Below, in pieces: positions 12,997 to 22,874 of a stretch of 64,000 nt of DNA. Position numbers and translations under genes: made by a program. Origin of the DNA: Comamonas sp. B21-038 (GTDB lineage Bacteria; Pseudomonadota; Gammaproteobacteria; Burkholderiales; Burkholderiaceae_C). Numbering within the stretch: position 1 is the first letter of the stretch; each line of letters opens with the position of its first letter. Location of the stretch: assembly GCF_022387135.1 (NCBI RefSeq), contig NZ_CP092462.1:682001-746000 (forward strand), written 5' to 3'. A model generated the notes under the pieces. It was not told the origin of the DNA, searched no databases, and saw nothing but the letters and a program-made list of their open reading frames with translations.

Positions 12997-13018
12997 GGGG
13001 CAGGGCCAGGCCCCTCAA
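12993..13018. terminator. hairpin between convergent genes
   Basis: TTGAGGGGC (12993-13001) pairs with GCCCCTCAA (13010-13018), a 9-bp stem that spans both stop codons of the convergent marR and lacI genes. No T-run follows on either strand, so intrinsic termination is weakly supported. Confidence 0.4.
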
Positions 13019-14070
13019 GGCAAATTCTCCCGAAAGATGACCTGGCTGCGCACGATGTCCACCGCCGTCATCGTGTCGAGCTGGTCGCGCAGATTGCTGA
13101 ACATGCGGATGCAGCTCATGATGATGCCCAGGTGGCTTTGGGTGATGACGGCGTCCATCGTGCCGTTGATCAGCAGCGCGCGGGTGTCGGGGGTGAGGCC
13201 GTGGCCGATGAGGACGACCTGGTGCTCGCGGCCGGCTTCCTGCAGCGCGCGGCCTACTCCATCCGATGACCCCCCGATGTTGTAGATGCCGGCGATATGC
13301 GGGTGGCGCTGCAGCAGCTCCTTGGTCTGCTGGTAGTTGCGGGACGAGTCGTCGTAACTCTCGCGCAGGCCCAGGATCTGCATGTCGGGGAACTGCTCGG
13401 CATGCAGTTGCAGAAAGCCGCCTTCGCGCTCTTCATGCGCCAGGTAGCTGCGCGATCCTGCAATCAGCGCGATTTGCGCATCGCGGCGCTGGCTGCCGAT
13501 AAAGCGGGCCAGCAGGTAGGCGGCGGTGCGGCCGGCGGCCCGGTTGTCCAGTCCCACATAGGCGATGCGGGCGCTGTTGTCCAGGTCGGAGATAACGGTC
13601 AACGTCGGCACGCCCCGCTCGGCGAGTTGCTGCACCGCTTCGCGCACTGCGGGGTGCTCGATGGCCATAAAGGCGATGCCCTGCACCCGTTTGCCCAGGC
13701 GCAGCAAGGTGGCGGCCAGCGCTTCGGGGTTGAAGCTCTCCACATATTCCACCTGGCATTTGACGTTGAAGGGCGCCTGGTGGCTTTCGGAAAAACCAAT
13801 GGTGTCGCCCAGCATGCGCAGGTAGGGGTTCTGGCCTTGGGGCAGCACAAAGGCCAGCTTCCAGGGCGCGGACTGCGGCGCGGCATCGGCCAGCGCATCG
13901 GGCAGGTAGCCCAGCGCCTGGGCGGCCTGGTGCACCTTCTGCACGGTGATGGGGCGTACGCCGGGGCGCTGGTTCAGCACCCGGTCCGCGGTGGCGGTAG
14001 AGACGCCCGCCAGGGCGGCCACGGTCTTGAGCGTGAGGCGCTGCGTCGGCGCTGCGGGGCTATGAGGCAT
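13015..14070 (-). CDS. LacI family transcriptional regulator
   Basis: 351 aa. N-terminal LacI helix-turn-helix: LTLKTVAALAGVSTATADRV, then the hinge and a periplasmic-binding-protein-like sugar domain (about residues 70-340) with IAYVGLDNRAAGRTAAYLLARF and GIYNIGGSSDGVGRALQE. Divergent from the TRAP transporter gene and probably its regulator. The ligand is likely a sugar, acid sugar or derivative. A candidate operator is GCAAGCCGTTTGC at 14112-14124. Confidence 0.92.
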   Translation of the reverse strand: MPHSPAAPTQRLTLKTVAALAGVSTATADRVLNQRPGVRPITVQKVHQAAQALGYLPDALADAAPQSAPWKLAFVLPQGQNPYLRMLGDTIGFSESHQAPFNVKCQVEYVESFNPEALAATLLRLGKRVQGIAFMAIEHPAVREAVQQLAERGVPTLTVISDLDNSARIAYVGLDNRAAGRTAAYLLARFIGSQRRDAQIALIAGSRSYLAHEEREGGFLQLHAEQFPDMQILGLRESYDDSSRNYQQTKELLQRHPHIAGIYNIGGSSDGVGRALQEAGREHQVVLIGHGLTPDTRALLINGTMDAVITQSHLGIIMSCIRMFSNLRDQLDTMTAVDIVRSQVIFRENLP

Positions 14071-14111
14071 CAGAAAACATCAAATTCAATCATTTTGTGC
14101 GTTTGACTATA

Positions 14112-14124
14112 GCAAGCCGTTTGC
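14112..14124. promoter_or_regulatory. possible LacI-type operator
   Basis: GCAAGCCGTTTGC lies in the 116-base divergent region between the LacI gene and dctP. LacI-family operators are short palindromes with a central CG; this one has only 4-bp arms, so it is weak. Confidence 0.3.
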
Positions 14125-14186
14125 CTATCTTCCAGTATGAGATCTGTGCCATTGCATCAATTCAAATCAAATATTAGGAGACAAGC

Positions 14187-15206
14187 ATGAACGAACTCAG
14201 CCGCCGTTCCCTCATCAAGGGACTGACCGCCTTGCCTGCCGCAGGCATGGTGTCGGGCTTTCCATTGGTTGCGCGTGCCGCCGAGTTCTCGCTCAAATAC
14301 GGCAACAACCTGCCGCTGAGCCACCCGCTCAACATCCGCGCGAAAGAGGCGGCGGACCGCATCCGCAAGGAAAGCAATGGCCGCGTCGAGCTGGCCATCT
14401 ACCCCAACAACCAGCTGGGCGGCGATACAGACATGCTGGCGCAGGTGCGCTCGGGCGGTATCGATTTCTTCACGCCATCGGCGCTGGTGATTGCGACCCT
14501 GGTGCCGGCTGCGGCCATCAATGCAGTGGGTTTTGCGTTTACCAACTACGACCAGGTCTGGAAGGCGATGGATGGCCCGCTGGGCGCGATGGTGCGGGCC
14601 GAGATTGCCAAGCGCAAGCTCTATGCGTTCGAGAAGATGTGGGACAACGGTTTCCGCCAGACCACCAGCAGCAAGGGTGCGGTGCACAGCGCCAAGGATA
14701 TGGATGGCCTCAAGATCCGCGTGCCGGTGAGCCCGATGCCGATTGCGATGTTCAAGGGCCTGGGCGCTGCACCGGCCAGCCTGCAGTTCTCCGAGGTGTA
14801 CTCGTCGCTGCAGACCCGGATTGTGGATGCGCAGGAGAACCCGCTGCCCATCATCCAGGTGGCCAAGCTCTACGAGGTGCAGAAGTTCTGCTCGCTGACC
14901 AACCATATCTGGGATGGCTACTGGTTCATCGCCAACGGCCGCATGTGGGAGAGCCTGCCGGCCGATCTGAAGAAGATCGTGGCCACGGCGATCAACGATG
15001 CCGGCATGGCGCAGCGGGCGGATATCAGCCAGCTCAATGCCTCGGTACAGGCCGATCTGGCGAGCAAGGGCCTGCAGTTCAACCAGCCCGATGCGGAGAG
15101 CTTTCGCGCCGCGCTGCGCAGCTCGGGCTTTTACAAGGACTGGCAAGGCCGCTTTGGCAAGGACGTGTGGAGCCTGCTCGAAGGCGCCGTTGGCAAGCTC
15201 GCTTGA
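14187..15206 (+). CDS. TRAP transporter substrate-binding protein (DctP)
   Basis: 339 aa periplasmic TRAP receptor. A Tat-like leader (SRRSLIKG followed by a hydrophobic stretch to about residue 31, LVARA) precedes FSLKYGNNLPLSHPLN. The later segments GGDTDMLAQVRSGGIDFFTPS and SLQTRIVDAQENPLPIIQ, the latter with the conserved carboxylate-binding Arg region, are typical of DctP proteins. Strong ribosome site TTAGGAGACAAGC. The context (RuBisCO-like protein, acid-sugar kinase) suggests an acid-sugar ligand rather than a C4-dicarboxylate. Inference from neighbours. Confidence 0.92.
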   Translation: MNELSRRSLIKGLTALPAAGMVSGFPLVARAAEFSLKYGNNLPLSHPLNIRAKEAADRIRKESNGRVELAIYPNNQLGGDTDMLAQVRSGGIDFFTPSALVIATLVPAAAINAVGFAFTNYDQVWKAMDGPLGAMVRAEIAKRKLYAFEKMWDNGFRQTTSSKGAVHSAKDMDGLKIRVPVSPMPIAMFKGLGAAPASLQFSEVYSSLQTRIVDAQENPLPIIQVAKLYEVQKFCSLTNHIWDGYWFIANGRMWESLPADLKKIVATAINDAGMAQRADISQLNASVQADLASKGLQFNQPDAESFRAALRSSGFYKDWQGRFGKDVWSLLEGAVGKLA

Positions 15207-15242
15207 GCGATGCACTGATTCACGCCCTGAAAGAGCATTGCC

Positions 15243-17129
15243 ATGTCCCACCCTGCAACCCCCGCGCTGGCGGGGCTCTCTGCTGCGCCGCCCGACAACG
15301 CCTTGGCCTCGCTGGCCCATAGAGTTGACCATGGCCTGGGCGCCATCGTCGAGACGGCAGCCGCCGCCCTGGTGCTGGCCGAAATCATCGTGCTGTTTGC
15401 CGGCGTGGTGGCGCGCTATGTGTTCCACCAGCCGCTGGTCTGGTCCGATGAGCTGGCCTCGCTGATGTTTCTGTGGCTGTCCATGCTGGGTGCCGTGGTG
15501 GCGCTGCGCCGGGGCGAGCACATGCGCATGACGGCATTCATCAACAACGTGCGGCCGGGCCTGCGCGCAGCGCTGGAAGCTTTTGCGCTGGCCGCATCGC
15601 TGGCCTTTTTGCTGATGGTGCTGGGCCCCGCCTACGAATATGCGGAGGAAGAGGCCTTTATCACCACCCCGGCGATGGAGCTGAGCAATGCCTGGCGGGC
15701 TGCTGCGCTGCCGGCGGGTATGGGCCTGATGGCCGTGGTGGCCCTGCTGCGGCTGCTGACGCAGAGCAGCTGGCAAAAGGCGTTGGCTGCGGTGGCGCTG
15801 GTGGCCGCGCTGGTGCTGCTGTTCTGGCTGTGCCAGCCGCTGTTCAAGAGCCTGGGCAAGTTCAACCTGGTGATCTTCTTTGTGCTGGTGGTGGCGGGCA
15901 CGGTGTTTGCGGGTGTGCCGATTGCGTTCTCGTTTGCGCTGGCCACCTTTGGCTACCTGGCGCTGACCACACGCACGCCGCTGGTGGTGATGGTGGGGCG
16001 GCTCGATGAGGGTATGTCGCACCTGATCATGCTGGCGGTGCCGATGTTCATTTTTCTAGGCTCGCTGATCGAGATGACCGGCATGGCCAAGGCGATGATC
16101 CAGTTTCTGGCCAGTTTGCTGGGCCGCGTGCGCGGGGGCCTGTCATATGTGCTGATTGGCGCGATGTACCTGGTCTCGGGCATCTCGGGATCGAAGGTGG
16201 CCGACATGGCCGCGATTGCGCCGGTGCTGTTCCCCGAGATGAAAAAGCGCGGCGCCAAGGAGGGCGATCTGGTCGCGCTGCTGTCTGCTACCGGCGCGCA
16301 GACGGAGACCATTCCGCCGTCCATCGTGCTGATCACCATCGGCTCGGTCACCGGCATATCGATTGCCGCGCTGTTTACCGGCGGCATGCTGCCGGCGGTG
16401 GTGCTGGGCGCTGCGCTGTGCTGCGTCGTGTGGTGGCGCTACCGCAAAGAGGATCTGGGTGGTGTGGAGCGCTTCAGCGGCAAGCAGATTGGCCGCCTGC
16501 TGGTGATTGCGTTGCCGGCGCTGGCCTTGCCCTTTGTGATCCGCGCCGCGGTGGTGGAGGGGATCGCGACGGCGACCGAGGTCTCCACCATCGGCGTGGT
16601 CTATTCGGTGCTGGTGGGCCTGTTCATCTACCGCTGCTTTGACTGGCGGCGCCTCAAACCCATGCTGGTGGAGACTGCTTCGCTGTCGGGCGCGATCATG
16701 CTGATTGTGGGCTGCGCCACCGGCATGGCCTGGGGGCTGACGCAGTCGGGCTTCTCGGCCGACCTGGCCAAGGCGATGACCAGCATGCCCGGCGGCAGCT
16801 GGGGCTTTCTGGCGATCTCCATCGTCTGCTTCATCGTGCTGGGCAGTGTGCTCGAAGGCATCCCCGCCATCGTGCTGTTTGGCCCGCTGCTGTTCCCCAT
16901 CGCCAAAGCGGTGGGCGTGCACGAGGTGCATTACGCGATGGTCGTTATTTTTTCGATGGGCATCGGCCTGTTTGCGCCGCCCTTTGGCGTGGGCTACTAC
17001 GGCGCCTGCGCGATCAGCAAGGTCAACCCCAACGAGGGCATTCGGCCCATCGGCGGCTACATGCTGGCGCTGTTCGTCGGGCTGCTCTTTGTCGCGGCCA
17101 TTCCCTGGATTTCCACCGGATTTTTATAA
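15243..17129 (+). CDS. TRAP transporter fused small and large membrane subunits (DctQM)
   Basis: 628 aa. The N-terminal about 180 residues are the four-helix DctQ subunit (MFLWLSMLGAVVALRRGEHMRM motif). From about residue 200 the DctM large permease follows, with FAGVPIAFSFALATFGYLAL, SGSKVADMAAIAPVL and FAPPFGVGYYGACAISKV. Fusion of both subunits in one chain is a known TRAP variant. Together with the preceding DctP this makes a complete sodium- or proton-coupled importer. 36 bases after dctP. Confidence 0.93.
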   Translation: MSHPATPALAGLSAAPPDNALASLAHRVDHGLGAIVETAAAALVLAEIIVLFAGVVARYVFHQPLVWSDELASLMFLWLSMLGAVVALRRGEHMRMTAFINNVRPGLRAALEAFALAASLAFLLMVLGPAYEYAEEEAFITTPAMELSNAWRAAALPAGMGLMAVVALLRLLTQSSWQKALAAVALVAALVLLFWLCQPLFKSLGKFNLVIFFVLVVAGTVFAGVPIAFSFALATFGYLALTTRTPLVVMVGRLDEGMSHLIMLAVPMFIFLGSLIEMTGMAKAMIQFLASLLGRVRGGLSYVLIGAMYLVSGISGSKVADMAAIAPVLFPEMKKRGAKEGDLVALLSATGAQTETIPPSIVLITIGSVTGISIAALFTGGMLPAVVLGAALCCVVWWRYRKEDLGGVERFSGKQIGRLLVIALPALALPFVIRAAVVEGIATATEVSTIGVVYSVLVGLFIYRCFDWRRLKPMLVETASLSGAIMLIVGCATGMAWGLTQSGFSADLAKAMTSMPGGSWGFLAISIVCFIVLGSVLEGIPAIVLFGPLLFPIAKAVGVHEVHYAMVVIFSMGIGLFAPPFGVGYYGACAISKVNPNEGIRPIGGYMLALFVGLLFVAAIPWISTGFL

Positions 17130-17248
17130 GCGGGCGGCAGCCCTGCGGCCTGCTTCCCGGTCTGGGTCTGCATCGCGTGCGCGCCACGTGAGGCAGCGCC
17201 TATGCCACCAACGCAACAACCAACCCTACAACAAACGAAAGACAAGCT

Positions 17249-17788
17249 ATGAGTCGCTTTTTAGGAGAAATCCGCCAGCTGGGCTATGTGGTCAACGATA
17301 TCGAGGCCGCGATGAAGTACTGGAGTGAGACCTTGGGCGTGGGCCCCTGGTTCTACAACCCGAAGGTGCCGATCGAGAACTACCAGTACGCGGGTGAAAG
17401 CTACCAACCGCACAACTCGGTGGCGCTGGCCAACTCGGGCTTTGTGCAGGTGGAGCTGATCCAGGTGCGCAACGATGTGCCGTCGATGTACCGCGACTTT
17501 CTGCGCGCCGGCCGCACGGGCCTGCAGCATGTGGCGTACTGGACCACCGACTACGACGCCGATCTGCAGCGCTTGCTGGCGCAGGGCTTCAAGCCGCAGA
17601 TGAGTGGCGAGGTGGGCAAGAACGGCCGCTTTATCTACTTTGACACTGAGTACCACCCGGGCACGGTGATCGAGCTGTCCGAGGTGATGGGCCCCAAGGG
17701 CAAGATGTTTGACCTGATCCGCGCGGCCTCCCAGGACTGGGATGGCCAGAACCCCGTGCGCCCATTCCCTGACCTCAACACCCTGTGA
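17249..17788 (+). CDS. VOC family (glyoxalase-like) protein
   Basis: 179 aa vicinal-oxygen-chelate fold protein. The first half opens RQLGYVVNDIEAAMKYWSETLGVGPWF, the second has GLQHVAYWTTDYDADLQRLL and ends FDTEYHPGTVIELSEVMG. His in LQHVAYW and Glu in VIELSE fit VOC metal ligands. VOC enzymes isomerise, epimerise or cleave small metal-chelated substrates. Between a TRAP importer and a RuBisCO-like protein it may isomerise or epimerise the imported acid; this is inference. Preceded by AAAGACAAGCT, similar to but weaker than the binding-protein leaders. Confidence 0.85.
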   Translation: MSRFLGEIRQLGYVVNDIEAAMKYWSETLGVGPWFYNPKVPIENYQYAGESYQPHNSVALANSGFVQVELIQVRNDVPSMYRDFLRAGRTGLQHVAYWTTDYDADLQRLLAQGFKPQMSGEVGKNGRFIYFDTEYHPGTVIELSEVMGPKGKMFDLIRAASQDWDGQNPVRPFPDLNTL

Positions 17789-17818
17789 AGGCCGGCCCGC
17801 GCTGGGCCTGGACATGCG

Positions 17819-19096
17819 ATGACATCTACCCATTTTGAAGCCAGCTACCTGATCGAGACCCCACTGGCGCCCGAGGCCGTAGCCGAGGTAATGGCCGGTG
17901 AGCAATCCTGCGGCACCTTTGCCCGCGTGGCGGGCGAGACCGATGACCTGCGGGCACGCGCGCGTGCCCAGGTGCTGCAGGTGCAGCCGCTGGGCACGGT
18001 GGACCGGCCCAGCCTGCCCAATGCCTGGCTGGCGCGCCAAGGCTATGGCGCGGGCGCCCACTGGCAGCGTGCCCGTGTGCGCATTGCCTTCCCCATTGCC
18101 AATGTGGGTGCCAACCTGCCCACCTTGGCGGCCACCGTCAGCGGCAATCTGTATGACCTGGGAGAGGTATCGGGCCTGCGGCTGGAGAGCTTGGACCTGC
18201 CACCGGACTACCGCGACCAGTTCGATCTGCCGACCCTGGGCGTGGCTGGCACGCGGCGCAGCATTGGGGCCAGCGCGGGCGCGATGGTGGGCACCATCAT
18301 CAAGCCGAATGTGGGCCTGTCTGCCCAGCAAACGGCTGACCTGGTGCGGCAGCTCTGCGATGCGGGCGTGGACTTTATCAAGGACGATGAGGTATCGGCC
18401 AACCCCGCGCATGCACCGCTGCGGGAGCGTATTCCGGCGGTGATGCGCGTGGTCCGCGAGCACCGGGAGCGCACCGGCAAATGGGTGATGGTGGCCTTCA
18501 ACATCAGCGATGAAACCAGCGCCATGCTGCGCCACGCCGATCTGGTGCAGCAGGAGGGCGGCAACTGCGTGATGGCCAGCATCAACTGGTGCGGGCTGTC
18601 TGGCATCCAGAGCCTGCGGCGCCACACCCCGCTAGCGCTGCATGCGCACCGCAATGGCTATGGCGCGCTGTCGCGCGACCCGATGCTGGGCATGGGCTAC
18701 CAAGCCTACCAGACCCTGTGGCGCCTGGCCGGTGTGGACCATGTGCATGTGCATGGGCTGCAGGGCAAGTTTGCCCAGCCCGATGCCGAGGTGGTGGAGT
18801 CCGCGCAGGACTGCCAGCGGCACCTGTCTGCCGTGCAGGACGACCGGGTGCTGCCGGCCTTCTCATCGGGCCAGTGGGCGGGTACGGTGCCTGCCACCTG
18901 GGCGGCGTTGCAGAGCGATGACCTGCTGTTCATGGCGGGCGGCGGCATTCTGGCGCACCCCGATGGCCCGGCTGCTGGCGTGCTGAGCATTCGCCAGGCC
19001 TGGGCTGCCGTGCGCGCTGGCAGCAGCCTGGACGACTATGCCGGGCATGCGCCGGAGCTGGCGCGCGCGCTGCAGTTTTTTGGCAAGCGCGGATAG
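17819..19096 (+). CDS. RuBisCO-like protein (form IV), candidate acid-sugar phosphate enzyme
   Basis: 425 aa RuBisCO large-chain homologue. Conserved: Lys162 in GTIIKPNVGLS (catalytic Lys region), Lys188-Asp-Asp-Glu191 in VDFIKDDE (carbamylated lysine and Mg ligands), HAHRNGYGALSRDP (His275, Arg278), Lys317 in QGKFAQPDAE (loop 6 position) and GGGILAHPDGPAAG (phosphate site). Many form IV proteins lose several of these, so this one looks chemically competent. The DUF1537 kinase five bases downstream resembles the OiaK-OiaX/OiaC pairing of isoapionate catabolism, where a RuBisCO-like enzyme acts on 3-oxo-isoapionate 4-phosphate. True carboxylase activity is unlikely: no small subunit or phosphoribulokinase is present. 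Confidence 0.85.
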   Translation: MTSTHFEASYLIETPLAPEAVAEVMAGEQSCGTFARVAGETDDLRARARAQVLQVQPLGTVDRPSLPNAWLARQGYGAGAHWQRARVRIAFPIANVGANLPTLAATVSGNLYDLGEVSGLRLESLDLPPDYRDQFDLPTLGVAGTRRSIGASAGAMVGTIIKPNVGLSAQQTADLVRQLCDAGVDFIKDDEVSANPAHAPLRERIPAVMRVVREHRERTGKWVMVAFNISDETSAMLRHADLVQQEGGNCVMASINWCGLSGIQSLRRHTPLALHAHRNGYGALSRDPMLGMGYQAYQTLWRLAGVDHVHVHGLQGKFAQPDAEVVESAQDCQRHLSAVQDDRVLPAFSSGQWAGTVPATWAALQSDDLLFMAGGGILAHPDGPAAGVLSIRQAWAAVRAGSSLDDYAGHAPELARALQFFGKRG

Positions 19097-19101
19097 GCGC
19101 C

Positions 19102-20457
19102 ATGCTGGACACCTTGCTGCGCGGCAAACCCGCCGTCGTCTGGTATGGCGATGACTTTACCGGTGCGACCGACACCCTGGCCACGGTGGCGCAGGCGGGC
19201 CTGCGTTCTCTGCTTTTTCTGGATGTGCCGACCGGGGCGCAGCGGGCCAAGGCCGGGCCCTTGCAGGCCATGGGCATCGCCGGTGCGGCCCGCAGTCTGA
19301 GCCCCAACGCAATGGCCGAGGTGCTGGCGCCGGTGGCGCAGTTCATGGCCGCCAGCGGCGCGCCGCTGCTGCACTACAAATGCTGCTCCACCTTTGACAG
19401 CGCCCCGTATGTGGGCAGCATTGGCGCGGCGGTGGCGACATTGCGCAAGGTGGCTCCCGCATCGCCAGCGGTCATCGTGGGCGGGCAGCCCAATATCGGG
19501 CGCTTTTGTGCCTTTGGCAACCTGTTTGCGCAGGCCGGGCCGGGCGGCGCGGTGCAGCGCCTTGACCGCCACCCCACGATGCGGCAGCACCCCGTCACCC
19601 CGATGGACGAGGCCGATCTGCGCCTGCACCTGGCCAAACAGGGGCTGGCCGATATTCGGTTGCTGAGCACGCGGCAGCTGGAGCTGGCGGGCAGCGATAC
19701 CGAGGTGCTGCTGCGCTGGATGCAAGTACAAGAGGGAGAACGCCTCTTGCCAGATGCCTTGCTGATCGACCTGGTGCACGAAGCCCAGCTGCCGCAGATT
19801 GGCGCGCTGCTGTGGGCGCGTGCGCAGCAAGCGCCGTTGCTGGCCGTGGGGCCCAGCGGCGTGGAGCAGTGCTTGATAGCAGGCTGGCGCCAACTGGGAT
19901 GGTTGGGCGATGTGCCAGCGGCTGAACCGCTGGCGCCCGCGCAGGGCCCGGTGCTGGTGCTGGTCGGCAGCTTGTCGCCGGTCTCCCGCCAGCAGATCGC
20001 GGCCAGCCAGCAGTTTGACAAGCGGGAGGTGGAGGTGGGCCGGCTGCTGGCCGAGGAGGGCTATCTGAGCAATTGCGCGGCTCAGCTGGCCCAGGGCCTG
20101 CACGAGGGGCGCCCTATGCTGGCGCACACCAGCCGGCCCAGCCAAGCGGTGGACGCGGCCACGACGGCAGCAGTGGCACAGCGCAGCGCGCAGCTGGTGG
20201 CAGAGACCTTGCGCCTGCTGGCCGCACAGGGCCAGCCCTTGCGGCGCCTGGGCATTGCAGGCGGCGATACCTCCAGCCTGGCAACGCAGGCGTTGGGGCT
20301 GTGGGGGCTGGCCTTCCACAGCACCTTGGCGCCTGGCGTGACCATGAGTGTGGCACGCAGCGATGATGCGCGCATCGATGGGCTGGAGCTGATGCTCAAA
20401 GGGGGGCAGATGGGCGATGCGCAGCTGTTTGACCGGCTGGTGACGGGGGCGTGCTGA
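19102..20457 (+). CDS. DUF1537 four-carbon acid sugar kinase
   Basis: 451 aa. N-terminal substrate domain with WYGDDFTGATDTLATVAQAGLRSLLFLD. C-terminal nucleotide domain with LGIAGGDTSSLATQALG, where GGDTS is the ATP-site motif of the family. Members (DtnK, OtnK, OiaK) phosphorylate acid sugars such as threonate, erythronate or 3-oxo-isoapionate. Located directly after the RuBisCO-like gene, so it probably makes that enzyme's phosphorylated substrate. Exact sugar acid unknown. Last gene of the cluster; a terminator follows. Confidence 0.9.
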   Translation: MLDTLLRGKPAVVWYGDDFTGATDTLATVAQAGLRSLLFLDVPTGAQRAKAGPLQAMGIAGAARSLSPNAMAEVLAPVAQFMAASGAPLLHYKCCSTFDSAPYVGSIGAAVATLRKVAPASPAVIVGGQPNIGRFCAFGNLFAQAGPGGAVQRLDRHPTMRQHPVTPMDEADLRLHLAKQGLADIRLLSTRQLELAGSDTEVLLRWMQVQEGERLLPDALLIDLVHEAQLPQIGALLWARAQQAPLLAVGPSGVEQCLIAGWRQLGWLGDVPAAEPLAPAQGPVLVLVGSLSPVSRQQIAASQQFDKREVEVGRLLAEEGYLSNCAAQLAQGLHEGRPMLAHTSRPSQAVDAATTAAVAQRSAQLVAETLRLLAAQGQPLRRLGIAGGDTSSLATQALGLWGLAFHSTLAPGVTMSVARSDDARIDGLELMLKGGQMGDAQLFDRLVTGAC

Positions 20458-20484
20458 AAGCCGCCGTGGCTGAGTGGCAGACGT

Positions 20485-20514
20485 AAAAAAGCCCCAGGCG
20501 CTGTGCCTGGGGCT
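20485..20514 (-). terminator. intrinsic terminator (maeB side, probably bidirectional)
   Basis: AGCCCCAGGC (20490-20499) pairs with GCCTGGGGCT (20505-20514) around a 5-base loop. On the minus strand a run of T follows, so it ends maeB; on the plus strand ATCTTT follows, so it may also stop the kinase transcript. Confidence 0.85.
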
Positions 20515-20570
20515 ATCTTTGGGCTATCCGTGCAAACCAAACCAAGGCGCGGCGGGTGCCGCGCCCGGGC

Positions 20571-22874
20571 TTACTTGCCTTCCTTGCGGGCCTGGGCCTG
20601 GGCGGCGACCAGGGCCGTCATGTTGACCACGCGGCGCACGGTGGACGAGGGGGTCAGCACATGGGCGGGTGCCTCGCTACCCAGCAGGATCGGGCCGATG
20701 GTGGTGCCGTGCGATGCCGTGGTCTTGAGCACATTGAACAGAATGTTCGCTGCGTCCAGGTTCGGGCAGATCAGCACATTGGCTTCACCGGTCAGGCTCG
20801 ACTCGATGAGGGTGCGCTCGCGCACGTGTTCGTCCAGCGCGGCGTCGCCATGCATCTCGCCATCGCATTCGATGTCGGGATTGGCGGCGGCAAACAGGTC
20901 GCGGGCAGCGCGCATCTTGAGCGCCGACTTGCGGGTGGACGAGCCGTAGTTGCTGTGCGACAGGAAGGCCACCTTGGGTGGCAGACCAAAGCGCTGCACC
21001 TCTTGCGCGGCAAGCTTGGCAATCTGGGCCAGCTCTTCGGCGGTCGGGTCTTCGTTGATGTAGGTGTCGGCGATGAACAGCGTGCGGTTTTCCAGCATCA
21101 GCGCGTTCACGGTGGCCAGGCGGTTGGCATCGGTCTGGTGGCCCAGCACGTCTTCGATATGGCCCAGGTGCTTGTCGAAGCGGCCCATCACGCCACACAG
21201 CATCGCGTCGGCATCGCCCAGGTGCACCATCAGCGCGGCGATCACGGTGTTGGAGCGGCGCACGGCAGACTTGGCGACCTCGGGGGTCACGCCATTGCGG
21301 CCCATCAGGGCGTGGTAGGCCTCCCAGTACTGGCGGAAGCGGGGGTCATCTTCCGGATCGACGATGTCCACATCCTTGCCCAGTTGCAGGCGCAGACCGG
21401 CCTTGGCGATGCGGGCTTCGATGACGGCAGGGCGGCCGATCAGGATCGGCTTGGCCAGGCCGTCGTCCACGGCGACCTGCACGGCGCGCAGCACGCGCTC
21501 GTCTTCGCCTTCGGCGTAGGCCACGCGTTGCACATGGCTCTTGGCCGCAGCAAACACCGGGCGCATGAACATGCTGGTCTGGTAGACGAAGCGGGTGAGG
21601 TTCTCACGGTAGGCGTCGATGTCTTCGATCGGGCGTGCAGCCACGCCGGATTCTTGCGCAGCCTTGGCCACGGCGGGCGCAATGCGCAGAATCAGGCGGG
21701 TGTCGAACGGGGTGGGGATCAGGTAGTCGGGGCCGAACTTCAGCTCCTTACCCTGGTAGGCGGCAGCCACTTCGTCGCTGACGTCCTGCTTGGCCAGCGC
21801 GGCGATTTCGCGCACGCAGGCCAGCTTCATCGCCTCGGTGATCTTGCTGGCGCCGCAATCGAGCGCGCCACGGAAGATGTAGGGGAAGCACAGCACGTTG
21901 TTCACCTGGTTCGGGTAGTCCGAACGGCCGGTGGCGATGATGCAATCAGGGCGAACGGCCTTGGCCAGCTCGGGGCGGATTTCTGGCTCGGGGTTGGCCA
22001 GCGCCAGGATGATGGGCTTGTCGGCCATGGTCTTGACCATGTCGGCCGTCAGCACGCCAGGGGCGGAGCAACCCAGGAACACGTCAGCGCCGTTGACCAC
22101 ATCGGCCAGGGTACGGGCTTCGGTCTTTTGCGCGTAGCGCGCCTTGGAGGCATCGAGGTTGCCAGGGCGGCCTTCGTAGATCACGCCCTTGGAATCCACC
22201 ATGAAGATGTTCTCGCGCTTGACGCCGAGGCCCACCATCACATCGACGCAGGCAATGGCTGCAGCGCCCGCGCCGGAGACGGCGATCTTCACGTTGCCGA
22301 TTTGCTTGTCGACCAGTTCCAGGCCGTTGAGCAGCGCAGCGCTGGAGATGATGGCCGTGCCGTGCTGGTCGTCATGGAACACCGGAATGTTCATGCGCTT
22401 GGACAGCTCTTGCTCGATGTAGAAGCACTCGGGTGCCTTGATGTCTTCGAGGTTGATGCCGCCCAGCGTGGGCTCGAGGCTGGCGATGATGTCGATCAGC
22501 TTGTCTGGATCGCGCTCGGCCAGCTCGATGTCGAACACATCGACGCCGGCGAACTTCTTGAACAGGCAGCCCTTGCCTTCCATCACCGGCTTGCTGGCCA
22601 GCGGGCCGATATCGCCCAGGCCCAGCACGGCGGTGCCGTTGGTGATCACACCGACCAGGTTGCCGCGCGAGGTGTAGTCGGCTGCCAGGCTGGGATCGGC
22701 TTCGATGTCCAGGCAAGGGTAGGCCACGCCTGGCGAATAGGCCAGCGACAGGTCACGCTGGTTGGACAGCGGCTTGGTGGGGGTGACGGAGATCTTGCCC
22801 TTGCTGGGGCTGCGATGGTATTCGAGTGCGGCTTCGCGCAGTGCCTGTTCGGCGGCGGACAGTTGTTGTGCCAT
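20571..22874 (-). CDS. maeB: NADP-dependent malic enzyme with phosphotransacetylase-like domain
   Basis: 767 aa. Malate + NADP to pyruvate + CO2 + NADPH. The malic enzyme domain covers about residues 1-430: [49 protein letters not shown] and the nucleotide segment [15 protein letters not shown]. The C-terminal part (about 440-767) is homologous to phosphotransacetylase and is usually regulatory (acetyl-CoA responsive) in MaeB proteins. Single gene with its own terminator. It supplies NADPH and pyruvate from the C4 pool that the neighbouring catabolic units feed. Confidence 0.95.

Follow-up and report, generated by a model that had tools for sequence, protein, structure and literature searches.

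The 64,000-nucleotide stretch of Comamonas sp. B21-038 DNA analysed here (contig NZ_CP092462.1, positions 682,001 to 746,000; below, the window) carries a LacI-family regulator gene divergent from genes for a TRAP importer, a VOC protein, a RuBisCO-like protein (RLP) and a DUF1537 kinase. We favor the reading that these genes form an operon under LacI control for the breakdown of a C4-C5 sugar acid, in which the VOC protein would act first and the kinase and cleavage by the RLP would follow, but we hold it tentatively, at slightly under an even chance. The original prediction, made from the sequence alone, had proposed six open reading frames (ORFs), and all six were found where it had placed them, with Pfam scores above the gathering cut-offs throughout:

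13015..14070, minus strand: LacI-family regulator, divergent from the operon (Pfam LacI 49.3 bits, Peripla_BP_4 131.9 bits)
14187..15206, plus strand: DctP, TRAP solute-binding protein (Pfam DctP 246.6 bits; best solved relative 4OAN, 62%)
15243..17129, plus strand: DctQM, fused TRAP permease in a single ORF (Pfam DctQ 96.4 bits, DctM 344.9 bits)
17249..17788, plus strand: VOC protein, proposed metal-dependent keto-acid isomerase/epimerase (Pfam Glyoxalase_4 90.8 bits)
17819..19096, plus strand: RLP of a clade of its own that includes 3NWR (Pfam RuBisCO_large 219.7 bits; 3NWR 646 bits)
19102..20457, plus strand: DUF1537 acid-sugar kinase of a clade found in VOC operons (Pfam SBD_N 163.4 bits, NBD_C 96.4 bits)

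The VOC and RLP genes are 30 bases apart, and the RLP stop lies 5 bases ahead of the kinase start. In the NCBIfam scan, the LacI regulator reached the cut-off of no model.

A survey of RLP relatives confirmed at least 582 of them, and loci were counted for the best 80 of these 582. Since the 80 loci were chosen by RLP similarity, the window's RLP family is over-sampled, and the counts are not thinned for kinship. Outside annotated genomes, ORFs were labelled by their best BLAST match to a hand-labelled set, with unrefined starts; overlapping ORFs masked the DctP of L232, L233 and L235 and the kinase of L239 in this labelling, but these genes are present. The neighborhood search for the VOC-RLP-kinase triple, which had been suggested as a check, bore the grouping out: the kinase gene follows the RLP gene in 80/80 loci and the VOC gene precedes it in 79/80, the exception (L074) beginning within the RLP gene at a contig end. 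LacI was found in 76 of the 80 loci, and the remaining four are short. This recurrence rules out a chance co-location of the genes, and the set is clearly a working unit. The TRAP genes are not universal, since eight of the 80 loci have LacI and VOC without a DctP or DctQM match; in the three of these that were read (L011, L028, L057) a polar-amino-acid-type ABC importer was seen by eye between LacI and VOC, in operons that are otherwise similar.

The unit spans beta- and alphaproteobacteria. Among the matches listed, the closest named genome is that of Comamonas koreensis KCTC 12005 (RLP 96%), whose operon parallels that of the window gene by gene at 94-98%. The unit also occurs with different flanks on plasmids of Azospirillum, Roseomonas, Alloyangia, two Paracoccus, Paroceanicella, Pseudosulfitobacter and Neorhizobium. 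Of 19 plasmid VOC matches with at least 65% identity, 18 lie in records among the 40 best of 302 RLP-match records; the 19th is on an Azospirillum thermophilum plasmid that carries PdxA in place of the RLP.

The RLP, the only one in its own genome, has the predicted active-site residues K162, the KDDE motif (K being residue 188) and K317. It scored 425.8 bits with the NCBIfam model of OiaX (NF042437), below the cut-off of 700, and 127.9 and 150.8 bits with methionine-salvage models. A place in the methionine-salvage group, which would have spoken against a sugar-acid function, is thus not what these scores indicate. The lower score belongs to MtnW (TIGR03332, cut-off 513.6) and rules out a function as an MtnW-type methionine-salvage enolase. 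The proximity to OiaX-type RLPs agrees with the acid-sugar operon that had been proposed. The comparison with the OiaX model had no positive control, the annotated OiaX proteins being outside the scan, and ten other RLPs (nine from VOC-free operons and one from a swapped operon, see below) reached 422-473 bits, none passing 700; scores at this level therefore do not separate subfamilies.

In an IQ-TREE analysis of 45 hand-chosen rows (the kinase tree below was likewise built from hand-chosen rows), the RLPs of the VOC kind (21 rows including 3NWR) form one clade with 100/100 support, and the same clade was obtained in a wider quick tree thinned at 85% identity (SH-aLRT 100). The expected relationship to characterized sugar-acid enzymes stands insofar as the RLPs acting on 3-oxo-isoapionate-4-phosphate (OiaX-type) are nearest; a grouping with OiaX itself does not, as the clade is separate and the RLP of the window far under the OiaX cut-off. 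Residues K175, K201, D203, E204, H294, R295, H327, K334, S379 and the GGG loop (positions in what we take to be spinach numbering) are kept in 103/103 RLPs from VOC contexts. Together with the RuBisCO large-chain domain (219.7 bits), the invariant K201, D203 and E204 place the protein among form IV RLPs with an intact metal site. At three diagnostic positions of the active site the VOC-context RLPs have N for K177 (101/103), Y or F for H298 (100/103) and H at 329 (101/103), whereas those in apionate contexts have S, W and N in 15/15; apionate-type letters in a VOC context occur in 2/103, both from genome G124 and in fact the same gene under two labels (L138 and L149). Such double labelling (L114/L153 is another example) makes the totals of 103, 107 and 108 used here partly non-independent. 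The changes at K177 and H298 suggest that the enzyme would not carry out net ribulose-bisphosphate carboxylation. S379 is kept by VOC-clade and apionate-context rows, while the two OiaX rows have G at 379 and A at 177; its retention is a hint, no more, that the VOC clade may have kept carboxylation/hydrolysis chemistry. The clade has a crystal structure in the PDB, 3NWR, an RLP that groups with that of the window at 100/100 and that, as far as we can see, is known by its structure alone; a search of open-licence papers for 3NWR with Rubisco found no literature. PMC8914248 cites an RLP of a D-hamamelose pathway.

The kinase gave a similar picture. Its two domains (SBD_N 163.4 bits, NBD_C 96.4 bits, both above the gathering score) identify it as a DUF1537 kinase, but it reached 296.4 bits with the OiaK model (NF042436, cut-off 700; positive control L151, 820.2 bits) and 176.0 bits with the OtnK model (NF043035, cut-off 350). 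Nine other kinases from VOC operons scored 139-348 bits with the OiaK model, and seven from apionate, SDR (short-chain dehydrogenase/reductase), PdxA, swapped and OiaX operons scored 447-820 bits. All 17 VOC-operon kinases of the kinase tree group in a single clade (SH-aLRT 98). With the RLP at 425.8 and the kinase at 296.4 bits, each under a cut-off of 700, a variant rather than a known pathway is indicated, as had been predicted.

The genome of this Comamonas encodes two DUF1537 proteins, the second of which lies in a tetronate operon about 20 kb before the window (G000:C1:655500-662000). This operon contains the L-threonate dehydrogenase LtnD, OtnK (644.8 bits against 350), OtnI, an OtnC-like protein, GntP and an RpiR-type regulator; LtnD, OtnK and OtnI exceed their cut-offs and the OtnC-like protein falls short (209 against 250). 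A further copy of the tetronate pathway was therefore rejected as first choice: it would be redundant, which makes plain L-threonate or D-erythronate an unlikely substrate, although another epimer is possible. A somewhat unlikely alternative to our reading is nevertheless a four-carbon route, in which 2-oxo-tetronate (or an erythronate/threonate epimer oxidized elsewhere) would pass through the VOC protein in the place of OtnI, the kinase, and the RLP in the place of OtnC to dihydroxyacetone phosphate (DHAP) and CO2. The number and order of its steps would be those of OtnI-OtnK-OtnC, and DHAP needs no extra enzymes, consistent with the absences in 99 VOC-RLP loci described below. Zhang is said to have described, in 2016, TRAP-DUF1537 neighborhoods for four-carbon acids that include PdxA, a class II aldolase or RuBisCO, so that the combination of TRAP, DUF1537 and RuBisCO as such is already known. 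Against this route stand the genome's own LtnD-OtnK-OtnI set with its OtnC-like protein, the preference of the window kinase for the OiaK over the OtnK model (296 against 176) and the apionate-type enzymes of the swapped operons.

The VOC protein carries Q10, E69, H94 and E142, which are present in 107/107 aligned homologues and in 3GM5 (L053, L064, L085, L087, L088, L090 and L091 were left out of this alignment and of the DctP tree). Zinc glyoxalase I, an isomerase that works via an enediolate, has the same Q/E/H/E set; VOC dioxygenases have two histidines, which are missing from this set. Together with the Glyoxalase_4 domain (90.8 bits), the predicted metal site assigns the protein by sequence to the glyoxalase-I-like isomerases and epimerases. 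Methylmalonyl-CoA epimerase itself is excluded (TIGR03081, 24.9 bits against 114.95), yet the same chemistry would allow an epimerase. A VOC paralogue at 48-54% occurs in many genomes of the G001 family; in the one locus read (L244) it adjoins an SDR gene, and a P450-like ORF was seen by eye close to it, a setting that gives no clue to the reaction. Three annotated plasmids carry remoter VOC relatives whose surroundings are different again; in two cases these include CoA-ester and dioxygenase genes.

Among genes of known pathways, TIM, RpiB, ApnO, PdxA, OtnC, OtnI and pyk had no match in the 99 VOC-RLP loci. The predicted lack of the usual apionate gene ApnO was confirmed for the whole own genome. 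The RpiB family is absent from 9/12 VOC-bearing genomes, the own one among them, and represented in the other three. OiaX operons use an erythrulose-phosphate route, and TIM and RpiB adjoin OiaX in L193; lacking TIM and RpiB, the VOC-RLP loci are unlikely to follow this route. With neither ApnO nor RpiB, and with a separate tetronate operon in the genome, the operon does not duplicate a known pathway. That it nonetheless serves the ordinary D-apionate pathway, the VOC protein being auxiliary (for example in detoxification of a side product) and isomerization being left to an unlinked enzyme, seems very unlikely. In its favor are the homology of RLP and kinase with the apionate enzymes and the TRAP genes found in some ApnO operons, but there is no ApnO match in the genome, and the VOC protein is better conserved than the kinase in 79/79 loci and than the RLP in 72/79.

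As to the importer, the solved DctP closest to that of the window is 4OAN (Rhodopseudomonas palustris HaA2 RPB_2686, 62%), and a model of the window's DctP from an alignment (pLDDT 79.8) has 4OAN as its nearest fold; a single-sequence model reached only pLDDT 36. The density in 4OAN was reportedly modelled as 2-acetolactate, a 2-hydroxy-3-oxo acid. This is a weak hint to small branched 2-hydroxy-3-oxo acids. The review PMC5812351 counts 2-acetolactate among the new TRAP ligands from the EFI screen and leaves the protein unnamed. The 4OAN gene (genome G110) sits in a different operon, with DctQM and, by eye, an acyl-CoA ligase-like ORF, and with no RLP seen in 18 kb; acetolactate was therefore rejected as a substrate on the ground of 4OAN alone.

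An SDR gene lies between LacI and DctP in 15/108 VOC-bearing loci, 16 of which are short stretches without a labelled LacI. The DctPs of these 15 operons fall, together with that of L017, into one clade of 16 (SH-aLRT 100). On matched sets of 41 rows each, thinned at 95%, the SDR label changes 2 times on the DctP tree, 4 times on the VOC tree and 5 times on the RLP tree. With the fewest changes on the DctP tree, the SDR tracks the imported compound and not the downstream enzymes.

Evidence on the order of steps came from operons in which modules were exchanged. A VOC protein at about 60% identity or more was found in 22 of 391 genomes searched, and in 13 of these the adjacent RLP is of the VOC type. 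Five others (G124, G329, G390, G332 and G343) have LacI, DctP, DctQM and a VOC protein 77-79% identical to that of the window, but an apionate-type RLP and kinase; ApnO had no match in the stretches of these swapped operons, nor in the whole genome of G124, the one genome tested. In three more (L241, L242 and L243 from G056, G012 and G040; VOC 60-64%) the TRAP/VOC genes stand with an OiaK-like kinase, PdxA, DeoR and a DhnA/LsrF-type aldolase; RLP and LacI were unmatched in these stretches, and the genomes gave no RLP match at E 1e-60. The plasmid of Azospirillum thermophilum (L247) combines the typical LacI/TRAP/VOC front (VOC 77%) with a DUF1537 kinase, PdxA, DeoR and an aldolase, with no RLP in the stretch. 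The aldolases of these PdxA-type operons are of the DhnA/LsrF type or labelled 'fructose-bisphosphate' aldolase. The last genome (G097) has LacI-DctP-VOC with no match to DctQM, RLP or kinase in the stretch (L240); a separate locus of the same genome holds ApnO, RLP and kinase. What stays constant is thus the TRAP/VOC front end, while the cleavage enzymes vary.

These exchanges also bear on the order VOC last, in which a 2-hydroxy-3-oxo acid, imported or made by SDR or PdxA, would be converted by the kinase and the RLP or PdxA to a ketose 1-phosphate and CO2, and the VOC protein would then isomerize or epimerize the ketose phosphate for central metabolism or the aldolase. We consider this order unlikely. 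It gives the VOC protein a role in the RLP-free kinase/PdxA/aldolase operons, and the presumed ligand of 4OAN would suit it. But an exchange of kinase and RLP leaves the VOC protein beside the transporter, which argues for an early step, and in G097 it accompanies LacI and DctP alone. Moreover, 4OAN belongs to another operon, and if an importer of the window type takes a 3-oxo acid, the PdxA of the Azospirillum operon is likewise unexplained.

According to our preferred reading, with the VOC protein first, the TRAP importer would bring in a C4-C5 sugar acid that is already at the keto level. On this acid the VOC protein, with its glyoxalase-I-like Q/E/H/E metal site, would act via an enediolate, most likely turning a 2-oxo-3-hydroxy acid into a 2-hydroxy-3-oxo acid and less likely epimerizing it, and would occupy the place that ApnO has in apionate operons. 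The DUF1537 kinase would phosphorylate the terminal hydroxyl, and the Mg-dependent RLP would break a C-C bond of a molecule resembling a RuBisCO intermediate, yielding a glycolytic intermediate with no further pathway-specific enzymes. Transcarboxylation/hydrolysis would give 3-phosphoglycerate and a small acid, and decarboxylation would give CO2 and either a ketose phosphate or DHAP. Where the acid is imported in reduced form, an SDR would be added and a different DctP used.

Apionate-type RLP-kinase pairs are found fed by ApnO, by a lone SDR or by VOC. The economical reading is that ApnO oxidizes and isomerizes, the lone SDR only oxidizes and the VOC protein only isomerizes, all leading to one kind of 2-hydroxy-3-oxo acid. 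In a more specific version, which we regard as improbable, the VOC protein would be a metal-dependent ketol-acid isomerase moving a hydroxymethyl group; SDR and VOC would together do the job of ApnO, and the window operon would import the 2-oxo acid and skip the oxidation. To our knowledge this reaction type would be new to the VOC superfamily. It would provide a third independent feeder, after ApnO and the lone SDR, for C-C cleavage of sugar acids by RLPs.

Related RLP-kinase loci offered some further observations. Enolase, pyruvate kinase and phosphoenolpyruvate carboxylase genes lie nearby in L093, and the SDR-fed operons on plasmids of Bradyrhizobium elkanii (L094) and Azospirillum oryzae (L097) carry pyruvate kinase; these genes hint at 3-phosphoglycerate as a product. 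On a Croceibacterium plasmid (L092:7187-12364) the RLP-DUF1537 pair adjoins a protein with a beta-L-arabinofuranosidase domain, with beta-galactosidases and a fucosidase nearby, and a plant cell-wall sugar is a possible source there. Near a haloarchaeal pair on a Natronosalvus rutilus plasmid (L095:7614-11704) lie a small gene of the VOC type and genes for SDRs and zinc-binding dehydrogenases.

Several observations weigh against our reading. PdxA oxidizes a 3-hydroxyl and needs a 3-hydroxy acid phosphate. Isomerization to a 3-oxo acid would make it needless, so that an epimerase or a late VOC step fits the RLP-free operons better. The prediction that the VOC protein isomerizes before the kinase is therefore backed by the module swaps as to the early step but fits the PdxA operons poorly as a plain 2-oxo to 3-oxo isomerization, and because of the Azospirillum thermophilum operon we have widened the VOC step to isomerization or epimerization. 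A single event may lie behind the five swapped operons, which group as one clade, and that of G343 has a stop codon within the VOC frame. A 98/97 branch of the RLP tree parts the VOC clade, on the side of OiaX, from the swapped RLPs, which share the other side with L151/L152 and the root. Being the least OiaK-like, the VOC-operon kinases may have a substrate other than 3-oxo-isoapionate. As the window operon has no dehydrogenase, the supply of the keto acid must be external or depend on an unlinked gene, and the best unlinked SDR of the genome is only 47% identical and without the paired operator described below. Finally, of the two OiaX operons read, L193 has TIM and RpiB as neighbors and L192 does not.

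The intergenic regions contain further features:

14068..14092, plus strand: left operator-like repeats, CATCAGAAAACATCA (14068) overlapping CATCAAATTCAATCA (14078), with a 3-base overlap with the LacI start
14103-14131: promoter-like match TTGACT-17-TATCTT, a consensus match only, its -35-like TTGACT at 14103 between the left and right repeats
14155..14169, plus strand: right operator-like repeat, CATCAATTCAAATCA
20490..20514, no strand assigned: strong hairpin separating the operon from the convergent malic-enzyme gene, resembling a terminator of the minus strand, with a 10-pair stem and a T-rich tail on that strand

Direct repeats of the form CATCA-N5-NATCA occur at least once in 65/70 and at least twice in 59/70 LacI-DctP stretches (each including 30 bases of LacI), with a mean of 1.97 per stretch against 0.007 in mononucleotide shuffles, the motif having been derived and counted in the same stretches. 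A search of the 5.18 Mb genome for the paired motif gave one site, that of the window operon. Near-palindromes shared between LacI and DctP were found in at most 2/58 stretches. The hairpin region (20478-20530, plus strand) folds at -24.3 kcal/mol with a z of -3.7. The convergent neighbor (20571-22874) encodes malic-enzyme and phosphotransacetylase domains and is not counted in the unit.

Taken together, the operon represents a real, conserved branch of RLP-kinase sugar-acid catabolism, with the VOC protein as its likely new feeder. Few reactions have been assigned to form IV RuBisCO relatives, and one clade with a PDB structure, 3NWR, is now tied to a kinase, an importer, a regulator and a VOC protein. 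The substrate is constrained, in ways open to testing, by the exchanges of cleavage enzymes that nature has made behind a common front end, and isomerization of a sugar acid by a VOC protein, if confirmed, would as far as we know be a new activity for the superfamily. Among the open-licence papers listed, judged by titles and abstract openings, none describes a VOC-RLP-DUF1537 operon.

The closest known systems differ from this operon in distinct ways. The D-apiose/apionate pathway of the Rhizobium type, with OiaK (NF042436) and OiaX, shares the RLP next to a DUF1537 kinase, homologous enzymes and the catalytic lysines and metal ligands. The window operon, however, has no ApnO, sugar ABC importer or Gfo/Idh protein and a different regulator, its RLP and kinase score well under the cut-offs, and its clade has N and S where the OiaX rows have A and G (residues 177 and 379). 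The RLPs of the Xanthobacter type (L151, L152), transcarboxylases/hydrolases acting on 3-oxo-isoapionate-4-phosphate, resemble that of the window in the pairing with a kinase, in S379 and in having no TIM or RpiB match in the stretch, but they are fed by ApnO, stand under a LysR regulator and are 45-46% identical to it. The SDR-fed RLP-kinase operons (L094, L097, L150, L154, L194) likewise have an RLP, a DUF1537 kinase and no ApnO match, and four of the five have TRAP genes; here an SDR replaces the VOC protein, LysR is present in 4/5, and pyruvate kinase in L094 and L097. The VOC-TRAP-PdxA operons (L241-L243, L247), which represent a sister pathway without an assigned function, share VOC and TRAP orthologues and the DUF1537 kinase, and in L247 also LacI, while PdxA and an aldolase replace the RLP. 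The OtnI-OtnK-OtnC tetronate pathway, finally, offers the parallel of an isomerase, a DUF1537 kinase and cleavage of a 3-oxo-acid 4-phosphate, but two of its three enzymes come from other superfamilies, and its usual version, with OtnC under the cut-off, is encoded separately in the same genome.

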